From Pseudomonas sp. SG20056 (GTDB lineage: Bacteria > Pseudomonadota > Gammaproteobacteria > Pseudomonadales > Pseudomonadaceae), in the NCBI RefSeq assembly GCF_031764535.1, contig NZ_CP134499.1, forward strand, positions 1,612,001 through 1,676,000: 64,000 nt of DNA, in the 5' to 3' direction. The position numbers and the translations under genes are program-made. Shown one piece after another: positions 8,705-19,084 of this stretch (position 1 is its first letter; each line of letters begins with the position of its first letter). The notes under the pieces are model-generated. The model searched no databases and was not told the origin of the DNA. It worked only from the letters and a program-made list of their open reading frames with translations.

Positions 8705-11365
8705 ATGCGCACCGAACAGCCGAAGATGATCTACCTCAAGGACTACCAGGCCCCGGATTATCTGATTGATGAAACGCACCTGACCTTCGAGTTGTTCGAG
8801 GACCATACCTTGGTGCATGCGCAACTGGTGATGCGCCGTAATCCGGCTGCGGGTAGCGGTCTGCCGCCGCTGGTGCTGGACGGTCAGCAGCTTGAGCTGC
8901 TCAGTGTGGCGCTCGACGATCGCGAGCTGAGTGCTGGTGATTACCAGCTGAGCGACAGCCATCTGACCTTGCAGCCCACTAGCGCCAGCTTCGTGATCGA
9001 CAGCAGCGTGCGCATCCACCCGGAAAGCAATACCGCGCTGGAAGGGCTGTACAAATCCAGCGGCATGTTCTGCACCCAGTGCGAGGCCGAGGGCTTTCGC
9101 AAGATCACCTATTACCTCGACCGCCCGGATGTGATGAGCAAGTTCACCACTACCCTGAGCGCCGCGCAGCATGACTACCCGGTGCTGCTGTCCAACGGCA
9201 ACCCGATTGCCAGTGGTCAGGAGGAGGGCGGCCGACACTGGGCGACGTGGGAAGACCCGTTCATGAAGCCGGCCTACCTGTTTGCACTGGTCGCCGGTGA
9301 TCTCTGGTGTGTGGAAGACAGCTTCACCACCATGAGTCAGCGCGAGGTGGCGCTGCGTATTTATGTCGAGCCGGAAAACATCGACAAATGCCAGCACGCC
9401 ATGGACAGCCTGAAGAAATCCATGAAGTGGGATGAGGAGGTCTACGGCCGCGAGTACGACCTGGACATCTTTATGATCGTCGCGGTCAACGACTTCAACA
9501 TGGGTGCCATGGAAAACAAGGGCCTGAATATCTTCAATTCCAGCTGCGTGCTGGCCAAGGCCGAAACCGCCACCGACGCCGCGCATCAGCGCGTTGAAGC
9601 GGTTGTAGCTCACGAATACTTCCACAACTGGTCGGGCAACCGCGTGACCTGCCGCGACTGGTTCCAGCTGTCGCTCAAAGAAGGCTTTACCGTCTTCCGC
9701 GATGCCGAGTTCAGCGCCGATATGCACTCGCGCACGGTCAAACGCATTGAAGACGTGGCCTACTTGCGCACGCACCAGTTCGCCGAAGATGCTGGCCCCA
9801 TGGCCCACCCGGTGCGCCCGGATGCTTTTATGGAAATTTCCAACTTCTACACCCTGACGGTGTACGAGAAAGGCTCGGAAGTCGTGCGCATGATCCGCAC
9901 CCTGGTTGGCGCCGAGGGCTTCCGCAAAGGCAGCGACCTGTACTTCGCACGTCATGATGGCCAGGCGGTGACCTGTGATGACTTTATCCGGGCGATGGAA
10001 GAAGCCAATGGCGTCGATCTGACTCAGTTCAAACGTTGGTACAGCCAGGCCGGCACACCGCGCCTGGAGGTCAGTGAAAGCTACGACGCAGCCGCCAACA
10101 GTTATCGCCTGCACTTCCGCCAGAGCTGCCCGGCTACCCCGGGGCAGGCTGAGAAGCAGCCGTTTGTCATCCCGGTCGAGCTGGCTTTGCTTGATGCTCA
10201 GGGGCGTGAACTGCCGCTGCAACTGGTCAGTGAAGACGCTGCAGTGGGCACTTCCCGCGTGCTGCAGATAACGGAAGCGGAACAGGCGTTTACCTTTGTC
10301 AATCTCGCGGAAAAACCGCTGCCGTCCTTGCTGCGCGGCTTCTCGGCACCGATCAAGCTGAGCTTCCCCTACAGTCGTAATCAGTTGATGTTCCTGATGC
10401 AGCACGACAGTGACGGCTTCAACCGCTGGGAAGCGGGGCAGCAACTGTCCGTGCAAGTGCTGCAGGAGATGATTGACCAGCATCAGCGTGGCGAGCCGTT
10501 GGTGCTTGATCAACGTTTGGTTGAGGCCTACCGCACGCTGCTGGCCGACGATTCGCTGGATCAGGCCATGGTCGCTGAAATGCTCTCGCTGCCAGGTGAA
10601 GCCTATCTGACAGAAATCAGTGCTGTGGCCGATGTCGAAGCCATCCACGCCGCCCGTGAGTTTGCGCGCATGCAACTGTCGGATGCGCTGTTCGATCTGT
10701 TGTGGCAGCGCTATCAACGTAACCGCGAGGTGTCCCGCGCTAGCGCTTATGTGGCTGAGGCCGAACACTTTGCCCGGCGCAGCCTACAGAATATTGCGTT
10801 GTCCTACCTGATGCTCAGCGGCAAGGCTGAGGTGTTGGCGGCTTGTTTGGAGCAGTTCGAGAACGCTGACAATATGACCGAGCGTTTGACTGCGTTGGCG
10901 GTGCTGGTCAATTCGCCGTTCGAAGACGAAAAGGCAACCGCCCTGGCCAGCTTCGCCGATTTCTTCAAGGACAACCCGCTGGTTATGGATCAGTGGTTCA
11001 GCGTACAGGCAGCTTGTGCCTTGCCGGGTGCGCTACAGCGTGTTGAACAACTAATGCAGCATCCGGCGTTTACCCTGAAGAACCCGAATAAGGTTCGTTC
11101 GCTGATCGGTGCGTTTGCCGGGCAGAACCTGCTGGGTTTCCATCAGGCAGATGGCAGTGGCTACCGCTTCCTGGCCGACCAGGTGATTACCCTCAACGCC
11201 CTCAACCCGCAGATCGCGTCGCGTTTGTTAGCGCCGCTGACTCGCTGGGCCAAATACGGCAGTGCTCGTCAGGCGCAGATGAAAGCGCAACTTCAGCGCA
11301 TTCTGGCCTCGGGTGAATTGTCCAGTGATGTCTATGAGGTAGTCAGCAAGAGCTTGGTTGGTTAA
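8705..11365 (+). CDS. pepN: Aminopeptidase N
   Basis: An 886-residue zinc metallopeptidase of family M1, removing N-terminal residues from peptides in the cytoplasm; the length is typical for proteobacterial PepN. The exopeptidase motif GAMEN is at residues 267-271. The zinc motif HEYFHNW begins at 303 (HExxH 303-307), with the third ligand Glu326 in LKEGFTVF. The C-terminal half fits the alpha-helical PepN domain. It follows the DUF2797 gene by 54 bases on the same strand and is followed by a predicted terminator. Very confident. Confidence 0.97.
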   Translation: MRTEQPKMIYLKDYQAPDYLIDETHLTFELFEDHTLVHAQLVMRRNPAAGSGLPPLVLDGQQLELLSVALDDRELSAGDYQLSDSHLTLQPTSASFVIDSSVRIHPESNTALEGLYKSSGMFCTQCEAEGFRKITYYLDRPDVMSKFTTTLSAAQHDYPVLLSNGNPIASGQEEGGRHWATWEDPFMKPAYLFALVAGDLWCVEDSFTTMSQREVALRIYVEPENIDKCQHAMDSLKKSMKWDEEVYGREYDLDIFMIVAVNDFNMGAMENKGLNIFNSSCVLAKAETATDAAHQRVEAVVAHEYFHNWSGNRVTCRDWFQLSLKEGFTVFRDAEFSADMHSRTVKRIEDVAYLRTHQFAEDAGPMAHPVRPDAFMEISNFYTLTVYEKGSEVVRMIRTLVGAEGFRKGSDLYFARHDGQAVTCDDFIRAMEEANGVDLTQFKRWYSQAGTPRLEVSESYDAAANSYRLHFRQSCPATPGQAEKQPFVIPVELALLDAQGRELPLQLVSEDAAVGTSRVLQITEAEQAFTFVNLAEKPLPSLLRGFSAPIKLSFPYSRNQLMFLMQHDSDGFNRWEAGQQLSVQVLQEMIDQHQRGEPLVLDQRLVEAYRTLLADDSLDQAMVAEMLSLPGEAYLTEISAVADVEAIHAAREFARMQLSDALFDLLWQRYQRNREVSRASAYVAEAEHFARRSLQNIALSYLMLSGKAEVLAACLEQFENADNMTERLTALAVLVNSPFEDEKATALASFADFFKDNPLVMDQWFSVQAACALPGALQRVEQLMQHPAFTLKNPNKVRSLIGAFAGQNLLGFHQADGSGYRFLADQVITLNALNPQIASRLLAPLTRWAKYGSARQAQMKAQLQRILASGELSSDVYEVVSKSLVG

Positions 11366-12001: not shown

Positions 12002-13993
12002 ATGGAAATTAAGTCCCGTAAGCCCGTATTGCGTTTCGCACCTGCCAAGGCAGGTTTTGCTTTTGTCGGTCTCCTTCCTCTGCTGGTAGCGGCACATGCC
12101 CAGGCAGTGGAATTCAGCTTCGCCGACGATGAAATCAGCGGCTCCATCGATACCACCGTGTCTTATGGTCAACTTTGGCGCGTACAGGGCCAGGACAAGA
12201 CCAACAACGATATCAACACCAACGACGGTAACCGTAACTTCAATACCGGTCTGGTATCTGAGGTGTTTAAAATCACGACCGATATGGAAGTGACCTACCA
12301 AAACTACGGCGCCTTTGTGCGCGGTACTGCGTTCTATGACACCCAGATCATGGATAAGCGCAACAATTACTACGACACCAGCCTGGCTTATCAGCCAAGC
12401 CAGAACGTACCAAACGATGACAGTTTTACCCGTGGTACTCGTCATTCGGCTGGTCGCAATGCAGAAATCCTTGATGCCTATGTTTACGGTAACTGGGATG
12501 TTGCCGATATGCCGGTTGGCGTGCGCTTCGGTAAGCAGGTATTCAACTGGGGTGAAGGCCTGTTCTACCGCGGTGGGGTAAACACTACTAACCCAGTAGA
12601 TGCCGGTAAGTTCCGTTTGCCAGGTGCAGAAGTCAAAGAAGTGCTGGTTCCTGTTGAGGCGCTGAGCTTTAGCGTTGGCCTGACTGACAATATTTCTATG
12701 GATGCATTCTATCAGTTCAACTGGAAAGAGTCGGCGATTGATCCAGTGGGTACTTATTTCTCTGAGACCGACTTGTTCGGTGAGGGGGGTAATACTGCAT
12801 ATAATGATTTCTCAGGTACTACATTAGCGCCTGCTATCACTGGGTATAATAATTTGGCTGCCGGCGCTTTCGGTGGGCCAGCTCTTGCCGGTGCTCGTGC
12901 AGCAGGTCTCTATCAGAACGGCGTGAATACCTCATTCGGAAATATTCTAAAAGTTGCTGATGTCAATAGTGATTTGAATGCCAAGAATGATGGTCAATAT
13001 GGCCTATCTTTCAAATATATTGCTGAGGAGTTGAACTCTACGGAGTTTGGTGCATATCTCGTTAATTATCATGCCAAAGAGCCGACGATTTACGCTGATT
13101 TGAATGGTTATACAGGTGTCAATGTTAATAACTTGGCTGCTGCTGTTGGTGGTTTAACCAATGCCGTTGGCTTTGCTACTGTAGATATTCTTGGGGCTAC
13201 TCAGGCAAAGCGGGAATATGCTGAAGATATTCGTATGTATGGCTTGAGCTTCAATACAACCCTTAATGAAACCTCTGTTTTCGGTGAGCTGGCATATCGA
13301 CCTAATCTGCCAGTCGGCATTGCAGCTACTAACGATCTTTTAGGCGATCTTGTAATTCAAGGTGCTAAGCTAGCGAATAACTCTGGTCTTATTCCAGGTA
13401 GCGGTACAGCTATTATTTCAGGTGAGCAGATTTCTCGTGACGGTTCTGTAAGTAACTATCGCCGCGTTGAGTCATTCAATCTTTCACTTGGTGCAATTCA
13501 TAATTTTGGTAACGTCCTCAGCTTTGACTCGCTGTTCGGTGTTGCAGAAATTGCTTCCGAGCATTTGCGTGGCGACAGTTTGAAATACACCGGTGTTCGC
13601 TCCACAGCAAACCCGTTTGCTCCACAAACGTACACTCGTTGCATCGCAGGTCGTGCTAATACCTCTTATTCGACCGATGAGGCTATGGCTGAGCAGGATT
13701 GTGCGTCTAGTGATGCTTACGGCTACACGCTGGTACTTTCCGGCACTTGGAACGACGTTTACGCAGGCGTAAACCTGTCGCCGTTCACTGTTTTTAAACA
13801 CGACTTCCAAGGCAACTCGCATCAGACCGGTAACTTTATCGAAGATCGTAAGGCTTACACCGTGGGTCTGCGCGCCAGCTACCTGAATAGCCTGGAAGCT
13901 GAGATTCAATACACCGAGTTTATGGGCGCCGGTCAGAGCAACTCGGGTCGTGACCGCGACAATATCGGCCTGAACGTCAAATATTCCTTCTAA
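12002..13993 (+). CDS. DUF1302 outer-membrane beta-barrel protein
   Basis: A 663-residue exported protein of the DUF1302 family. An N-terminal signal peptide ends near AHAQAVEF. The rest alternates short beta strands with turns and ends in NVKYSF, an aromatic-terminated barrel C-terminus suited to BAM-mediated insertion. The ATG at 12002 follows CGGAG; a longer frame from 11936 lacks a signal-peptide start and is rejected. The gene directly precedes the DUF1329 gene, a pairing that recurs widely in Proteobacteria. The central part (about 12780-13550) falls to roughly 30-45% G+C with codons unlike the flanks, which suggests an exchanged surface-loop segment. It probably acts as the outer-membrane channel or docking protein of the four-gene set; its substrate is unknown. 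Confidence 0.88.
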   Translation: MEIKSRKPVLRFAPAKAGFAFVGLLPLLVAAHAQAVEFSFADDEISGSIDTTVSYGQLWRVQGQDKTNNDINTNDGNRNFNTGLVSEVFKITTDMEVTYQNYGAFVRGTAFYDTQIMDKRNNYYDTSLAYQPSQNVPNDDSFTRGTRHSAGRNAEILDAYVYGNWDVADMPVGVRFGKQVFNWGEGLFYRGGVNTTNPVDAGKFRLPGAEVKEVLVPVEALSFSVGLTDNISMDAFYQFNWKESAIDPVGTYFSETDLFGEGGNTAYNDFSGTTLAPAITGYNNLAAGAFGGPALAGARAAGLYQNGVNTSFGNILKVADVNSDLNAKNDGQYGLSFKYIAEELNSTEFGAYLVNYHAKEPTIYADLNGYTGVNVNNLAAAVGGLTNAVGFATVDILGATQAKREYAEDIRMYGLSFNTTLNETSVFGELAYRPNLPVGIAATNDLLGDLVIQGAKLANNSGLIPGSGTAIISGEQISRDGSVSNYRRVESFNLSLGAIHNFGNVLSFDSLFGVAEIASEHLRGDSLKYTGVRSTANPFAPQTYTRCIAGRANTSYSTDEAMAEQDCASSDAYGYTLVLSGTWNDVYAGVNLSPFTVFKHDFQGNSHQTGNFIEDRKAYTVGLRASYLNSLEAEIQYTEFMGAGQSNSGRDRDNIGLNVKYSF

Positions 13994-14059
13994 ACATAAC
14001 TAGAAAATATCGAGTGCCTGCGGGCACTCGGTTGCTGACTTATTTCACGGAGAATCAAG

Positions 14060-15430
14060 ATGCTGAAAAAGCACACGCTGATTGGTGCAGCCATTGCGCT
14101 GGCACTGTCCGCTGGCAGCGCGTTCGCTGCGGTTTCGCCTGCGGAAGCGGCCAAGTTGGGCGCAAGCCTCACCCCGTTCGGTGCCGAGAAAGCCGGTAAC
14201 GCGGCGGGCACCATTCCTGAGTGGACCGGTGGTATTACTCAGGCGCCAGCGGCTTACAAGACGCCAGGCCAGCACCACGTAGATCCGTTTGCTGATGACA
14301 AGCCATTGTTCACCATCACTAAAGCCAATCTGGATCAGTACAAAGACAACCTGACCCCAGGTCAGATTGCGATGTTCAATACCTATCCGAACAGCTACCA
14401 GATGCCGGTCTATCAGACCCGTCGTTCCGGTTCTGCGCCGCAGTGGGTGTATGACAACACCATCAAGAACGCCAGTACGGCCAAGTTGCTGGATGGCGGT
14501 AACGGCTTCTCCGACGCTTACGGCGGTATCCCGTTCCCGATCCCGCAAAATGGCGTAGAAGCGCTGTGGAACCACATTGCACGCTACCGTGGTACCTACA
14601 TTGTGCGTCGTGCTTCGGAAGTAGCCGTGCAGCGTAACGGCAGCTACTCCCTGGTGACCTCGCAGCAGGAAGCCATGTTCAAGTTCTACAACCCGAAAGG
14701 GACTGCAGCTGACCTGAACAACATCATGTTCTACTACCTGTCCTTCACCAAGAGCCCGGCGCGTCTGGCTGGTGGTGCGGTACTGGTGCACGAAACCCTG
14801 GATCAGGTAAAAGAGCCACGTCAGGCCTGGGGCTATAACGCTGGTCAGCGCCGCGTACGTCGTGCGCCGAACCTGGCCTACGACACTCCGATCGCTGCCG
14901 CTGACGGCCTGCGCACTGCAGACGACACCGACATGATCAACGGTTCGCCAGATCGTTATGACTGGAAGCTGGTAGGCAAAAAGGAAATCTACATTCCTTA
15001 CAACAGCTACAAAGTCACCAGCCCGGACGTCAAGTACAAGGACCTGCTGCAAGTTGGTCACTTGAACCCAGCCTTTACTCGCAACGAGCTGCACCGTGTG
15101 TGGGTAGTCGAGGGTACGCTGAAGTCGGGTTCGCGCCACATCTACTCCAAGCGCACCCTGTTCCTCGACGAGGACAGCTGGCAAGCAGCTGTGGTTGATC
15201 AGTACGACGGTCGTGGCGAGCTTTGGCGCGTTTCGATTGCCTACCTGAAAAACTACTACGACCTGCCGACCACCTGGTCTGCGCTGGATACTTTCCACGA
15301 TCTGCAAGCCCGTCGTTACCACGTGCAGAACCTGGATAACGAAGAGCCAAGCACCATCGACTTCAGCCAGGCTGTGCCGGATGACGGTTACTTCAAACCT
15401 GCTGCGCTGCGTCGCCGCGGTACGCGTTAA
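14060..15430 (+). CDS. DUF1329 periplasmic protein (LolA/LolB-like fold)
   Basis: A 456-residue exported protein of the DUF1329 family, described as outer membrane lipoprotein-sorting-like because the fold resembles LolA/LolB. A clear signal peptide (about residues 1-23) ends in GSAFAAVS. The mature protein has many tyrosines and prolines and family segments such as FPIPQNGVEALWNHIARYRG and VWVVEGTLKSGSRH. It lies 66 bases after the DUF1302 gene, preceded by ACGGAGAATC, and is followed by a strong terminator. It is inferred to be a periplasmic carrier of a lipid or other hydrophobic molecule between the RND protein and the DUF1302 barrel; this role is not proven. Confidence 0.9.
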   Translation: MLKKHTLIGAAIALALSAGSAFAAVSPAEAAKLGASLTPFGAEKAGNAAGTIPEWTGGITQAPAAYKTPGQHHVDPFADDKPLFTITKANLDQYKDNLTPGQIAMFNTYPNSYQMPVYQTRRSGSAPQWVYDNTIKNASTAKLLDGGNGFSDAYGGIPFPIPQNGVEALWNHIARYRGTYIVRRASEVAVQRNGSYSLVTSQQEAMFKFYNPKGTAADLNNIMFYYLSFTKSPARLAGGAVLVHETLDQVKEPRQAWGYNAGQRRVRRAPNLAYDTPIAAADGLRTADDTDMINGSPDRYDWKLVGKKEIYIPYNSYKVTSPDVKYKDLLQVGHLNPAFTRNELHRVWVVEGTLKSGSRHIYSKRTLFLDEDSWQAAVVDQYDGRGELWRVSIAYLKNYYDLPTTWSALDTFHDLQARRYHVQNLDNEEPSTIDFSQAVPDDGYFKPAALRRRGTR

Positions 15431-15448
15431 TCCGCGTGTAGGTTGAGC

Positions 15449-15479
15449 AAAAGGCCGCTACTGTTGTAGCGGCCTTTTG
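15449..15479 (+). terminator. Rho-independent terminator after the DUF1329 gene
   Basis: AAAAGGCCGCTAC and GTAGCGGCCTTTT form a 13-bp perfect stem with loop TGTT, ending in T residues. It separates the DUF1302-DUF1329 pair from the propeller-RND pair, so the second pair should have its own promoter within 15480-15625; no convincing -35/-10 pair could be picked. Confidence 0.9.
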
Positions 15480-15625
15480 CTATTTGTCAGTCCAACAGGG
15501 CATGGTAGACGGGCGGGTTTAACAAAACATAACGTCGCGCCGATTGTCAGGCCTTTTGAAAGCTCAGTAGGATAGGCGCACTGCTATAAGGGTAGTGCTA
15601 CCTATAAGAATAAGGGGGAAGGTAT

Positions 15626-16714
15626 ATGAGTGAGCCCGTCATGCGGCGCACCCAGGCCGGTCGTGTTGTGGGGTTGTCCCGCGCACCGGCGCTCCGCGTC
15701 CACTCACCGATAGCCAAAGCGCTGTCGCTGTGTAGTGTGCTATCCGTGCTGATGTTTACCAGTGCGCCATTGCAGGCTGCCAGCGATGACGCCAGTCATT
15801 TCTCAGTAGCCTCTGCCCAAGCTCAACAAAGTCTGCTGCTGGATGTCGCTAGTCTGGGTAAGCGCCTGGTCACCGTGGGTGATCGTGGGCATATCCTCTA
15901 TTCCGACGACAACGGGGCAAGCTGGGTTCAGGCAAAGGTGCCGACCAAGCAGATGCTCACTGCCGTGTTCTTTATCGACGACAGCCATGGCTGGGCTGTT
16001 GGTCACGATGCACAGATTCTCGCCAGCAGCGATAGCGGCGCTACTTGGGTCAAACAGTTTGAAGACCTTGAGCGTGAAGCGCCGCTGCTGGATGTCTGGT
16101 TCAAGGACCGCAATAACGGTTATGCCGTAGGCGCATACGGCGCCTTGTTGGAAACCACCGATGGCGGTGCCAACTGGGAAGATGTCAGCGACCGCATGGA
16201 CAACGAAGACGCCTACCACCTCAACGCCATTGTCGAAGTTAAAGACTCCGGCCTGTTTATTGTGGGCGAACAGGGTGCGATGTTCCGTTCCCCGGATTGG
16301 GGCCAGACCTGGGAAACCTTGGAAGGCCCTTACGAGGGCTCGCTATTCGGTGCTCTAGGCACTGATGAAGCCGGTGCGCTGCTGGTTTATGGCCTGCGTG
16401 GGCATCTGTTCCGTTCGGCAGACTTTGGTACGACCTGGCAGGCAATCAGCCTGAACACGGCCAACAATGGCCCTCTGGAGTTTGGTCTGGCTGACGGCAA
16501 TCGTCTGGCTGACGGCTCCATTGTGGTGGTTGGGCATGGCGGTACCGTACTCAAGAGCACCGACAACGGCCGCAATTTCAGTGTGACCAATCGTGCCGAC
16601 CGGCTTTCGCTGGCAGGCGTTGCAGCAATGGAAAACGGCAATCTGATTCTGGTAGGGCAGGGTGGTGTTCATGCTGCTACGCCTACTGGCGCCGATCTGG
16701 GCCAACAACAATAA
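15626..16714 (+). CDS. YCF48-like Asp-box beta-propeller protein
   Basis: A 362-residue exported protein with at least six Asp-box motifs (S/T-x-D-x-G-x-x-W/F): SDDNGASW, SSDSGATW, TTDGGANW, SPDWGQTW, SADFGTTW and STDNGRNF. These indicate a beta-propeller of the YCF48/BNR type. The N-terminus has a long basic region before a hydrophobic stretch ending near LQAASDD, a late signal peptide. GGGGGAAGG precedes the ATG at 15626. Only 15 bases separate it from the RND gene, so the two form an operon. In photosynthetic organisms YCF48 helps assemble photosystem II; here a scaffold or assembly role in the envelope transporter is inferred. Confidence 0.88.
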   Translation: MSEPVMRRTQAGRVVGLSRAPALRVHSPIAKALSLCSVLSVLMFTSAPLQAASDDASHFSVASAQAQQSLLLDVASLGKRLVTVGDRGHILYSDDNGASWVQAKVPTKQMLTAVFFIDDSHGWAVGHDAQILASSDSGATWVKQFEDLEREAPLLDVWFKDRNNGYAVGAYGALLETTDGGANWEDVSDRMDNEDAYHLNAIVEVKDSGLFIVGEQGAMFRSPDWGQTWETLEGPYEGSLFGALGTDEAGALLVYGLRGHLFRSADFGTTWQAISLNTANNGPLEFGLADGNRLADGSIVVVGHGGTVLKSTDNGRNFSVTNRADRLSLAGVAAMENGNLILVGQGGVHAATPTGADLGQQQ

Positions 16715-16729
16715 GCCGGGAGCCTTTGC

Positions 16730-19084
16730 ATGAGTAAGCATCAACAACAACCTGCCTCCTTCCTGGAGCGGTTGATCTTCAACAATCGCCCGGCCGTGAT
16801 TCTGCTGTGCCTGTTGATCAGTCTGTTTCTGTTCTTCCAGGCGGCGCAGGTGCGTCCGCAGACCAGCTTCGAGAAGATGATTCCGCTGGGACATCCCTAT
16901 ATTCAGAAGATGCTCGAGCACCGCAATGACCTGGCGAACCTGGGTAACACCGTGCGTATCTCGGTGGAAGCGGTGGATGGCGATATCTTCAGCAAGGAAT
17001 ACATGGAAACGCTGCGTCAGATCAACGACGAAGCCTTCTACATTCCGGGTGTCGACCGTTCCGGTCTGAAGTCGCTGTGGAGCCCAAGCGTACGCTGGAC
17101 CGAAGTGACTGAAGAAGGGTTTGCCGGCGGTGAAGTGATTCCGCAAACCTACGACGGTTCTGCAGAAAGCCTTGAAGAGCTACGCAGCAACATCCTCAAG
17201 TCCGGGCAGATTGGCCGTCTGGTGGCCAACAACTTCAAGTCGAGCATCGTCGACCTGCCGTTGCTGGAGACCTATGCCGACCCGAATGATCAGAGCAAGC
17301 AGATCCCGCTGGATTACCAGAAGTTCTCCCACGAACTGGAAGAGAAGATCCGCGAGAAGTACCAGGCGCAGAACCCCAACGTCAAAATCCACATCATTGG
17401 TTTCGCCAAGAAAGTCGGCGATCTGATCGATGGTCTGATTGGCGTGGCGTTGTTCTTTGCCGTGGCCATCGGCATCACCTTCGTTCTGCTGCTGTGGTTC
17501 ACCCACTGCTTCAAGAGCACCCTGGCGGTGGTCCTGACCACGCTGATCGCGGTGGTCTGGCAGCTGGGTTTGCTGCATACCCTGGGCTTCGGGCTTGATC
17601 CGTACTCGATGCTGGTGCCGTTCCTGGTCTTTGCCATCGGTATTTCCCATGGCGTGCAGAAGATCAACGGCATTGCCATGGCATCGGGCGAAGCGACTGA
17701 TTCGTTGTCCGCCGCACGTATGGCTTTCCGTCAGCTGTTTATTCCGGGTCTGGTGGCGCTGCTGTCGGATGCGGTGGGCTTTATCACCCTGCTGCTGATC
17801 GACATCGGCGTTATCCGTGAGTTGGCCATCGGCGCCTCCATGGGTGTGGCGGTGATCATTCTGACCAACCTGATTCTGCTGCCAGTGATGATTTCCTATG
17901 TCGGCATCAGCAAGAAGGCGGTGAAGATCAGCCGCGAAGAAGCCGACAAGGAGCATCCGTTCTGGCGCTTTATCTCCAACTGCGCGCACCCGATGGTCGC
18001 CCCGATTTCCGTGGTGGTTGCGGTCGCGGCGCTGGCGGGCGGTGTGTGGTACGGGCAGAACCTGAAGATCGGTGACCTTGACCAGGGCGCGCCTGAGCTG
18101 CATCCGGATTCGCGCTACAACCTGGATAACGATTTCGTCATCCGCAACTACTCCACCAGCTCCGATGTACTGGTGATCATGGTCAAGACGGCGGCCGAAG
18201 GTTGCTCGACTTACCCGACGTTGTCGGCCATGGATGAGTTGATGTGGAAGATGGAGAACACCGAAGGCGTGCAGTCGGCCATTTCCATGGTTACCGTGTC
18301 GCGTCAGGTGATCAAGGGCATGAACGAGGGCAACCTGAAATGGGAAACCCTGTCGCGTAACCAGGACGTGCTGAACAACTCCATTGCTCGGGCCGATGGT
18401 CTGTACAACGGCGATTGCTCGGTGGCGCCGCTGCTGGTGTTCCTCACCGATCACAAGGCAGAAACCCTGTCGCGTGCGGTCAAGGTTGCTGAAGACTTTG
18501 CCAAGGAAAACAACAAGGACGGCCTGGAGTTCATCCTGGCAGCCGGTAACGCGGGTATCGAAGCCGCGACCAACGAAGTGATCGCCAAGTCCGAGACCAC
18601 CATGCTGCTCGCGGTATACGCCGCAGTGGGCATCATGTGTCTGCTGACCTTCCGTTCCTTCGCGGCAACGCTCTGCGTGATGCTGCCACTGGTGCTGACA
18701 TCGGTACTGGGTAACGCCCTGATGGCCTTTATGGGCATCGGTGTGAAAGTGGCAACTCTGCCGGTAATCGCTCTGGGTGTGGGTATCGGTGTCGACTACG
18801 GCATCTACATCTACAGCCGTCTGGAGACTTACCTGCGTCAGGGCCTGTCGTTGCAGGAGGCCTACTACGAGACCCTCAAGTCGACCGGTAAAGCCGTGCT
18901 GTTCACCGGTATCTGCTTGGCGATTGGTGTGGCCACCTGGATCTTCTCGGCGATCAAGTTCCAGGCCGACATGGGCCTGATGCTGACCTTTATGTTCCTC
19001 TGGAACATGATCGGCGCGATCTGGCTGTTGCCTGCTCTTGCACGCTTCCTGATCAACCCGGAGAAGCTGCGCAACAAGGCCTAA
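16730..19084 (+). CDS. RND/MMPL family inner-membrane transporter
   Basis: A 784-residue RND-superfamily protein of the MMPL/HpnN-like group, lacking the drug-efflux AcrB length of about 1040. It has a duplicated plan: one N-terminal helix (about 20-40), a periplasmic domain (40-235), five helices (235-400), then a second helix (about 415-435), periplasmic domain (435-615) and helices to 770. In helix 4 of the second half, VGIGVDYGIYIYSR holds Asp689, a likely proton-relay residue. The equivalent position of the first half reads AIGISHGVQ with His307 instead. It is probably proton-driven export or trafficking of a hydrophobic compound. It follows the propeller gene by 15 bases and ends at a terminator. 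Confidence 0.9.
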   Translation: MSKHQQQPASFLERLIFNNRPAVILLCLLISLFLFFQAAQVRPQTSFEKMIPLGHPYIQKMLEHRNDLANLGNTVRISVEAVDGDIFSKEYMETLRQINDEAFYIPGVDRSGLKSLWSPSVRWTEVTEEGFAGGEVIPQTYDGSAESLEELRSNILKSGQIGRLVANNFKSSIVDLPLLETYADPNDQSKQIPLDYQKFSHELEEKIREKYQAQNPNVKIHIIGFAKKVGDLIDGLIGVALFFAVAIGITFVLLLWFTHCFKSTLAVVLTTLIAVVWQLGLLHTLGFGLDPYSMLVPFLVFAIGISHGVQKINGIAMASGEATDSLSAARMAFRQLFIPGLVALLSDAVGFITLLLIDIGVIRELAIGASMGVAVIILTNLILLPVMISYVGISKKAVKISREEADKEHPFWRFISNCAHPMVAPISVVVAVAALAGGVWYGQNLKIGDLDQGAPELHPDSRYNLDNDFVIRNYSTSSDVLVIMVKTAAEGCSTYPTLSAMDELMWKMENTEGVQSAISMVTVSRQVIKGMNEGNLKWETLSRNQDVLNNSIARADGLYNGDCSVAPLLVFLTDHKAETLSRAVKVAEDFAKENNKDGLEFILAAGNAGIEAATNEVIAKSETTMLLAVYAAVGIMCLLTFRSFAATLCVMLPLVLTSVLGNALMAFMGIGVKVATLPVIALGVGIGVDYGIYIYSRLETYLRQGLSLQEAYYETLKSTGKAVLFTGICLAIGVATWIFSAIKFQADMGLMLTFMFLWNMIGAIWLLPALARFLINPEKLRNKA

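Follow-up and report, generated by a model that had tools for sequence, protein, structure and literature searches.

An AmeABCD-type gene cassette in Pseudomonas sp. SG20056 suggests one inner pump with several interchangeable outer-membrane parts

Pseudomonas sp. SG20056 carries, next to pepN, four adjacent genes that by family, order and length read as a tetrapartite RND system of the AmeABCD type, a known but little-studied kind of system that spans both Gram-negative membranes. The four-gene combination has already been described as AmeABCD. New here is a modular, shared-engine reading of it, comprising two modules, dependence without linkage, an excess of outer pairs and an old copy at the pepN site. 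The comparison of genomes suggests that a single inner pump works with several interchangeable outer-membrane parts. We consider it likely that the cassette encodes a trans-envelope transporter of the AmeABCD kind built from two modules, in which a proton-driven RND protein and its propeller dock would act together with a LolA-like carrier and outer-membrane barrels.

The four genes and their products

Coordinates are those of the window, by which we mean the whole 64,000-nucleotide stretch analysed (NZ_CP134499.1, positions 1,612,001 to 1,676,000). The features are as follows.

8705-11365, + strand: pepN, a conserved upstream neighbour outside the machine (name from sequence reading)
12002-13993, + strand: DUF1302 outer-membrane barrel (AmeA-like), 663 aa; Pfam PF06980, E=2e-155
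14060-15430, + strand: DUF1329 periplasmic protein (AmeB-like), 456 aa; Pfam PF07044, E=4e-164
15446-15481, + strand: hairpin, probable intrinsic terminator at the border of outer and inner modules; -31.7 kcal/mol, z -6.5
15626-16714, + strand: YCF48/PSII_BNR propeller (AmeC-like), 362 aa, six Asp boxes; Pfam PF14870, E=4e-29
16730-19084, + strand: MMPL/HAE3-like RND transporter (AmeD-like), 784 aa; Pfam MMPL, E=2e-26

The initial annotation had placed four adjacent same-strand genes here, encoding an outer-membrane-type barrel, a LolA/LolB-like periplasmic protein, an exported six-Asp-box propeller and an MMPL-type RND protein, with a terminator splitting them into two transcripts. Pfam confirmed all four families at these coordinates. 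The models described below bear out the LolA-superfamily fold and, at low confidence, the barrel; the six boxes and the PSII_BNR/YCF48 match were found, and a strong hairpin is present between DUF1329 and YCF48. The three envelope proteins have export-type hydrophobic N-termini, judged by eye from the sequence.

The intergenic gaps are 66 nt between DUF1302 and DUF1329, 195 nt between DUF1329 and YCF48, and 15 nt between YCF48 and RND. The hairpin lies in the widest gap, exactly at the border of the outer and inner modules. None of the shuffled sequences equalled its folding energy, and it is conserved in the close relatives L049, L050 and L052. It is absent from the terminator-scan list because the T tract is taken up in the stem. 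Promoter-like hits of that scan were at chance level. It is plausible that the hairpin splits the cassette into two transcripts.

For the outer module, the Pfam match of DUF1302 covers residues 18-663. Its AlphaFold model (pLDDT 62) shows numerous long beta strands, and the nearest solved folds are the outer-membrane barrels MOMP, AlgE and the Occ family; given this pLDDT, we read only "outer-membrane barrel" from the model. DUF1329 shows a sub-threshold match to Pfam LolA_like besides PF07044, and its model is more confident (pLDDT 85.5). The nearest solved folds are LolA3 (9tp6), a DUF1329 protein (4z48) and LolA-superfamily proteins (3bk5, 3buu), with E-values down to 9e-17 and TM-scores, normalised by target, of 0.80 to 9tp6 and 0.77 to 4z48. 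The predicted fold of DUF1329 is that of the LolA superfamily, and the protein probably carries a hydrophobic ligand.

For the inner module, the propeller has its Asp boxes at residues 93, 134, 177, 222, 264 and 311, and the solved structures nearest to it are those of Ycf48 (PDB 5ojr/2xbg, E=8e-22). The best full-length NCBIfam match of the RND protein is HAE3 (TIGR00921), at 150.2 bits against a cut-off of 351.9, so we treat it as an HAE3-side relative and not as a strict member of that family. Its solved relatives are MmpL5, MmpL4 and MmpL3. Among 88 relatives D689-Y690 is near-invariant, S306-H307 is essentially invariant, and two cysteines of the second periplasmic loop, C492 and C563, are invariant. 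By analogy with the MmpL family, Asp689-Tyr690 and Ser306-His307 are probably part of the proton path; the two cysteines may form a disulfide. The Asp-Tyr pair lies in a late transmembrane helix, as in MmpL proteins such as MmpL3.

HpnN and MmpL3 share the RND architecture of the window protein. They differ from it at the TM4 position, which is Ser-His in the window protein and not Asp-Tyr, and in the cited literature they have no DUF1302 or DUF1329 partners. Against the NCBIfam models for HpnN, the RND protein scored far under the cut-offs (64 against 752 bits and 23 against 1100 bits), and the model for BstA also scored far under its cut-off. A family search of the source genome gave no match to squalene-hopene cyclase. 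Given the low HpnN scores and the missing cyclase match, we reject hopanoid transport in this genome as unsupported, and with it the hopanoid analogy drawn earlier. As for a tripartite HAE1 pump of the AcrAB-TolC type, neither a membrane fusion protein nor a TolC-type channel adjoins the RND gene, whose flanks instead hold DUF1302, DUF1329, YCF48 and pepN.

Co-occurrence, copy number and the pepN site

Our survey of the window's family took in 59 genomes. Both DUF1329 and the RND protein were present in 43 of them and both were missing from the other 16, a match that reflects fewer independent events than it appears to because the genomes are related. DUF1302 was found in 55 of the 59, including 12 that have neither DUF1329 nor RND, and it must therefore have other roles or subfamilies too. 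These 12 genomes (for example G194, G196, G197 and G200) each carry a single DUF1302 and no DUF1329 or related RND at E<=1e-50; their DUF1302 subfamily may do something else.

Operon linkage alone does not account for the association of DUF1329 with RND. Ten genomes have a single RND gene from which every DUF1329 is remote, either on another contig or about 0.8 Mb away on the same contig. In these ten genomes YCF48 still adjoins the RND gene. The wider class shows the same pattern: in a sample of 185 genomes, 24 of the 24 with a close RND carry strong DUF1329, DUF1302 and YCF48, where "close" means at least 380 bits and both the "close" and "strong" thresholds were chosen after viewing the score distributions. 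Three of the 185 combine a strong DUF1329 with no close RND, and one of these has a more distant RND beside DUF1329 and YCF48. Fisher P values overstate the co-occurrence, since the thresholds are post hoc and related genomes are not independent.

Outer-module genes outnumber the pump. DUF1329 exceeds RND in 41 of the 43 genomes, with totals of 250 DUF1329 and 98 RND, and these copy numbers suggest that several pairs share one engine. The source genome itself, according to family searches, holds five DUF1329, four DUF1302 and one close RND. Two remote pairs adjoin MalT/LuxR-type regulators, one of them also lying next to an acyl-CoA ligase and a gene reading as a thiolase, and a third pair adjoins a LysR regulator. 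This arrangement fits several outer pairs under separate control with one shared engine.

Two further observations concern these copies. The LysR-side pair (in locus L011, G000:C1:964000-982000) lies within about 5 kb of a gene reading as a tyrosine recombinase/integrase, and because of this proximity the pair may be mobile. The fifth DUF1329 (G000:C1:4073147-4074235; L012:8136-9476, - strand) has no detected DUF1302 adjoining it, sits on a long tree branch and is near a gene reading as a type II secretion secretin.

The modules themselves are separable. Across 80 loci with a related RND gene, YCF48 is directly upstream of RND in all 80; one of these loci, L122, ends at a contig edge. The upstream neighbour pepN precedes YCF48-RND in Pseudomonas, Stutzerimonas, Marinobacter, Hahella, Endozoicomonas, Thalassolituus and Moraxellaceae. 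By our tally, 6 pepN-site loci have both DUF1302 and DUF1329, 12 have DUF1329 only and 26 have neither. Many Pseudomonas lack an outer pair adjoining RND, and pairs are found elsewhere in their genomes.

Variants of the arrangement occur in other genera. In Marinobacter, Hahella and relatives (L098-L106, L109, L117 and L120), DUF1329 is the only outer-module gene between pepN and YCF48, and the fetched loci gave no match to DUF1302. In Idiomarina and Pseudidiomarina (L115, L116, L119, L121, L123, L124 and L128), DUF1329 is divergent from YCF48-RND, and here too DUF1302 had no match within the loci fetched. In Pontibacterium (L118:13782-16006), YCF48-RND is followed downstream by genes for an acyl-CoA dehydrogenase and a protein of the SCP2 sterol-transfer family.

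In a DUF1329 tree, all pepN-site copies form one clade (support 99/98) that includes several families. DUF1329 was therefore probably at this site in a common ancestor. Judged from the tree, the window copy is old and vertically inherited, and the P. putida and P. fluorescens lines probably lost the pepN-site DUF1329 later. The same clade rules out a recent catabolic-island insertion as the origin of the window copy, which has no catabolic neighbours. Plasmid cassettes adjoin acyl-CoA, aromatic and sterol-type genes, and in one case the order of the outer and inner pairs is swapped.

These surveys bear on several points of the initial annotation. Rather than occurring together rarely, the outcome it had named as counting against its grouping, the families co-occur strictly in the family sample and in all close-RND genomes of the class sample. 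It had read the locus as one four-gene machine; the four families do belong together, but as two separable modules, of which the outer is often missing. It had also raised the prospect of a fifth conserved partner, and the neighbour survey found none: the only widely shared neighbours are inherited genes upstream, among them pepN and DUF2797, and FadD-, FadE- and SCP2-like neighbours recur in a few lineages only.

Related systems, mechanism and direction of transport

AmeABCD was described in Castellaniella defragrans in 2018 as a hydrophobic-compound transporter for monoterpene tolerance (PMC6394551). As in the window, the cassette of strain 65Phen encodes DUF1302, DUF1329, COG4447/YCF48 and an HAE3-like RND in the same order, with sizes of 605/451/316/787 against 663/456/362/784 in the window, a likeness of families, order and lengths. 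The authors considered the lineage of such cassettes a likely new HAE3 subfamily (PMC6394551). Deletion of ameABCD reduced growth on monoterpene hydrocarbons and limonene tolerance; the mutant grew normally on low limonene with acetate and was less tolerant of high limonene even with acetate (PMC6394551). Nile Red accumulation was slightly increased, and real-time efflux was the same as in wild type (PMC6394551). Monoterpenes induce the Ame genes, which are located in a monoterpene island, whereas the window copy sits beside pepN without catabolic genes, has a hairpin between genes 2 and 3, and shares its genome with other outer pairs.

Other published cases involve the same families. In P. 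putida, PP_0765/PP_0766 and PP_2018/PP_2019 encode the same four protein kinds, as unlinked pairs where the window has adjacent ones, and all are needed for growth on Tween 20 (PMC10866462). Predicted contacts are strong between PP_2018 and PP_2019 and weak for PP_0766 with PP_0765 and with PP_2019 (PMC10866462). In Delftia acidovorans Cs1-4, DelCs14_1756, 1757 and 1758 (phnL) are consecutive DUF1302, DUF1329 and YCF48 genes (PMC3110197, PMC3958437), a likeness that covers three of the four families. They lie in a phenanthrene catabolic cluster; a phnL mutant was impaired on phenanthrene and not on pyruvate and produced fewer vesicles, and the authors interpreted the genes in terms of vesicle/nanopod formation (PMC3958437). 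A predicted COG4447/COG1033/PF07044/DUF1302 operon was reported in 2019 in aromatic regulons of Betaproteobacteria, under predicted AphR/AphS/AphT control, and was proposed to help against toxic aromatics (PMC6449761). An anaerobic benzene culture highly expressed a cluster with DUF1329, YCF48 and MMPL proteins (PMC13101534). A search for published links to steroids found nothing relevant.

In the mechanism we propose, the inner module would pair a proton-driven RND protein of the inner membrane with a YCF48 propeller that docks on it in the periplasm, and the outer module would consist of a DUF1302 barrel and a LolA-like DUF1329 that would carry a hydrophobic molecule between RND and barrel. 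One inner module would serve several outer pairs encoded elsewhere in the genome, each probably substrate-specific and under its own regulator. The cargo would be a hydrophobic growth substrate, its breakdown product, or an amphiphile needed to use it. We infer that the proteins form a physical complex in the source organism, that DUF1329 acts as a carrier, and what the cargo may be. A docking role for the propeller, proposed in the initial annotation, agrees with the published AlphaFold contact between PP_2018 and PP_2019 (PMC10866462). Its pathway for a hydrophobic molecule is in line with the published description of AmeABCD, but the outward direction it assumed is a deduction. It gave the substrate as unknown; for the family as a whole, clues from published phenotypes and from the surroundings of plasmid copies indicate hydrophobic compounds used for growth, or products of these.

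The published evidence on direction, a slight rise in Nile Red with unchanged efflux, is weak. We lean narrowly towards outward transport because other bacterial RNDs export, and because of the limonene and Nile Red phenotypes of the ame mutant and the reduced vesicles in Delftia; inward transport seems somewhat less probable, and only a small share is left for neither. An uptake machine, in which the barrel would admit the substrate, DUF1329 would carry it inward and RND would draw it into the inner membrane, is doubtful. It draws on copies inside catabolic gene clusters, on recurring FadD- and FadE-like neighbours, and on sole-carbon growth failures (monoterpene, phenanthrene, Tween 20), two of them on compounds that are not strongly toxic. 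The induction of nanopods by phenanthrene, judged not to be membrane stress, and the normal growth of the ameABCD mutant on low limonene with acetate agree with it. There is also a parallel in NPC1, a eukaryotic RND relative that takes cholesterol from the soluble carrier NPC2. However, to our knowledge, bacterial RND proteins of known direction (MmpL3, HpnN, AcrB) move cargo outward. The ameABCD mutant's poorer tolerance of high limonene with acetate and its higher Nile Red also speak against uptake, and the reduced vesicle production of the Delftia YCF48 mutant fits an outward flow of lipid or amphiphile.

That altered vesicle production could also be cited for a transporter that delivers a structural lipid, whether hopanoid-like or of another type, to the outer membrane, the catabolic link being secondary. 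Such a role would suit an old, vertically inherited pepN-site copy with no catabolic genes beside it, and HpnN and BstA are among the RND relatives. We nonetheless judge it improbable, as the source genome has no squalene-hopene cyclase match, both models score far under cut-off, 16 of the 59 family genomes live without the system, and mutants of other organisms are normal on pyruvate or acetate. Least probable is that two unrelated transcription units are neighbours by chance. The conserved hairpin between them and the many Pseudomonas with the inner pair alone at the site would allow this, but none of the 59 genomes of the family has DUF1329 without RND, whether or not the two are linked, plasmids repeatedly carry the four-gene cassette with its genes in more than one order, and the unlinked P. 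putida pairs share a mutant phenotype (PMC10866462).

Returning to the two-module transporter, we tentatively extend it to a hub-and-spoke arrangement, in which one RND and YCF48 engine would serve many interchangeable DUF1302/DUF1329 pairs, each handling a different hydrophobic compound; in its boldest form the engine would be an RND-driven importer. TolC is a single outer channel that serves many inner pumps. The arrangement suggested here would be its mirror image, one inner engine with many outer parts.

DUF1302 and DUF1329 are still listed as of unknown function in Pfam, although some genomes of Pseudomonadaceae have as many as 17 genes for DUF1329. The strict reliance of DUF1329 on a single RND/YCF48 pair offers these proteins a testable common role, the handling of hydrophobic compounds across the envelope. 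If this is true, loss of a single RND gene would disable many substrate-specific pathways together, and dependence on a shared engine bears on biodegradation and solvent tolerance.
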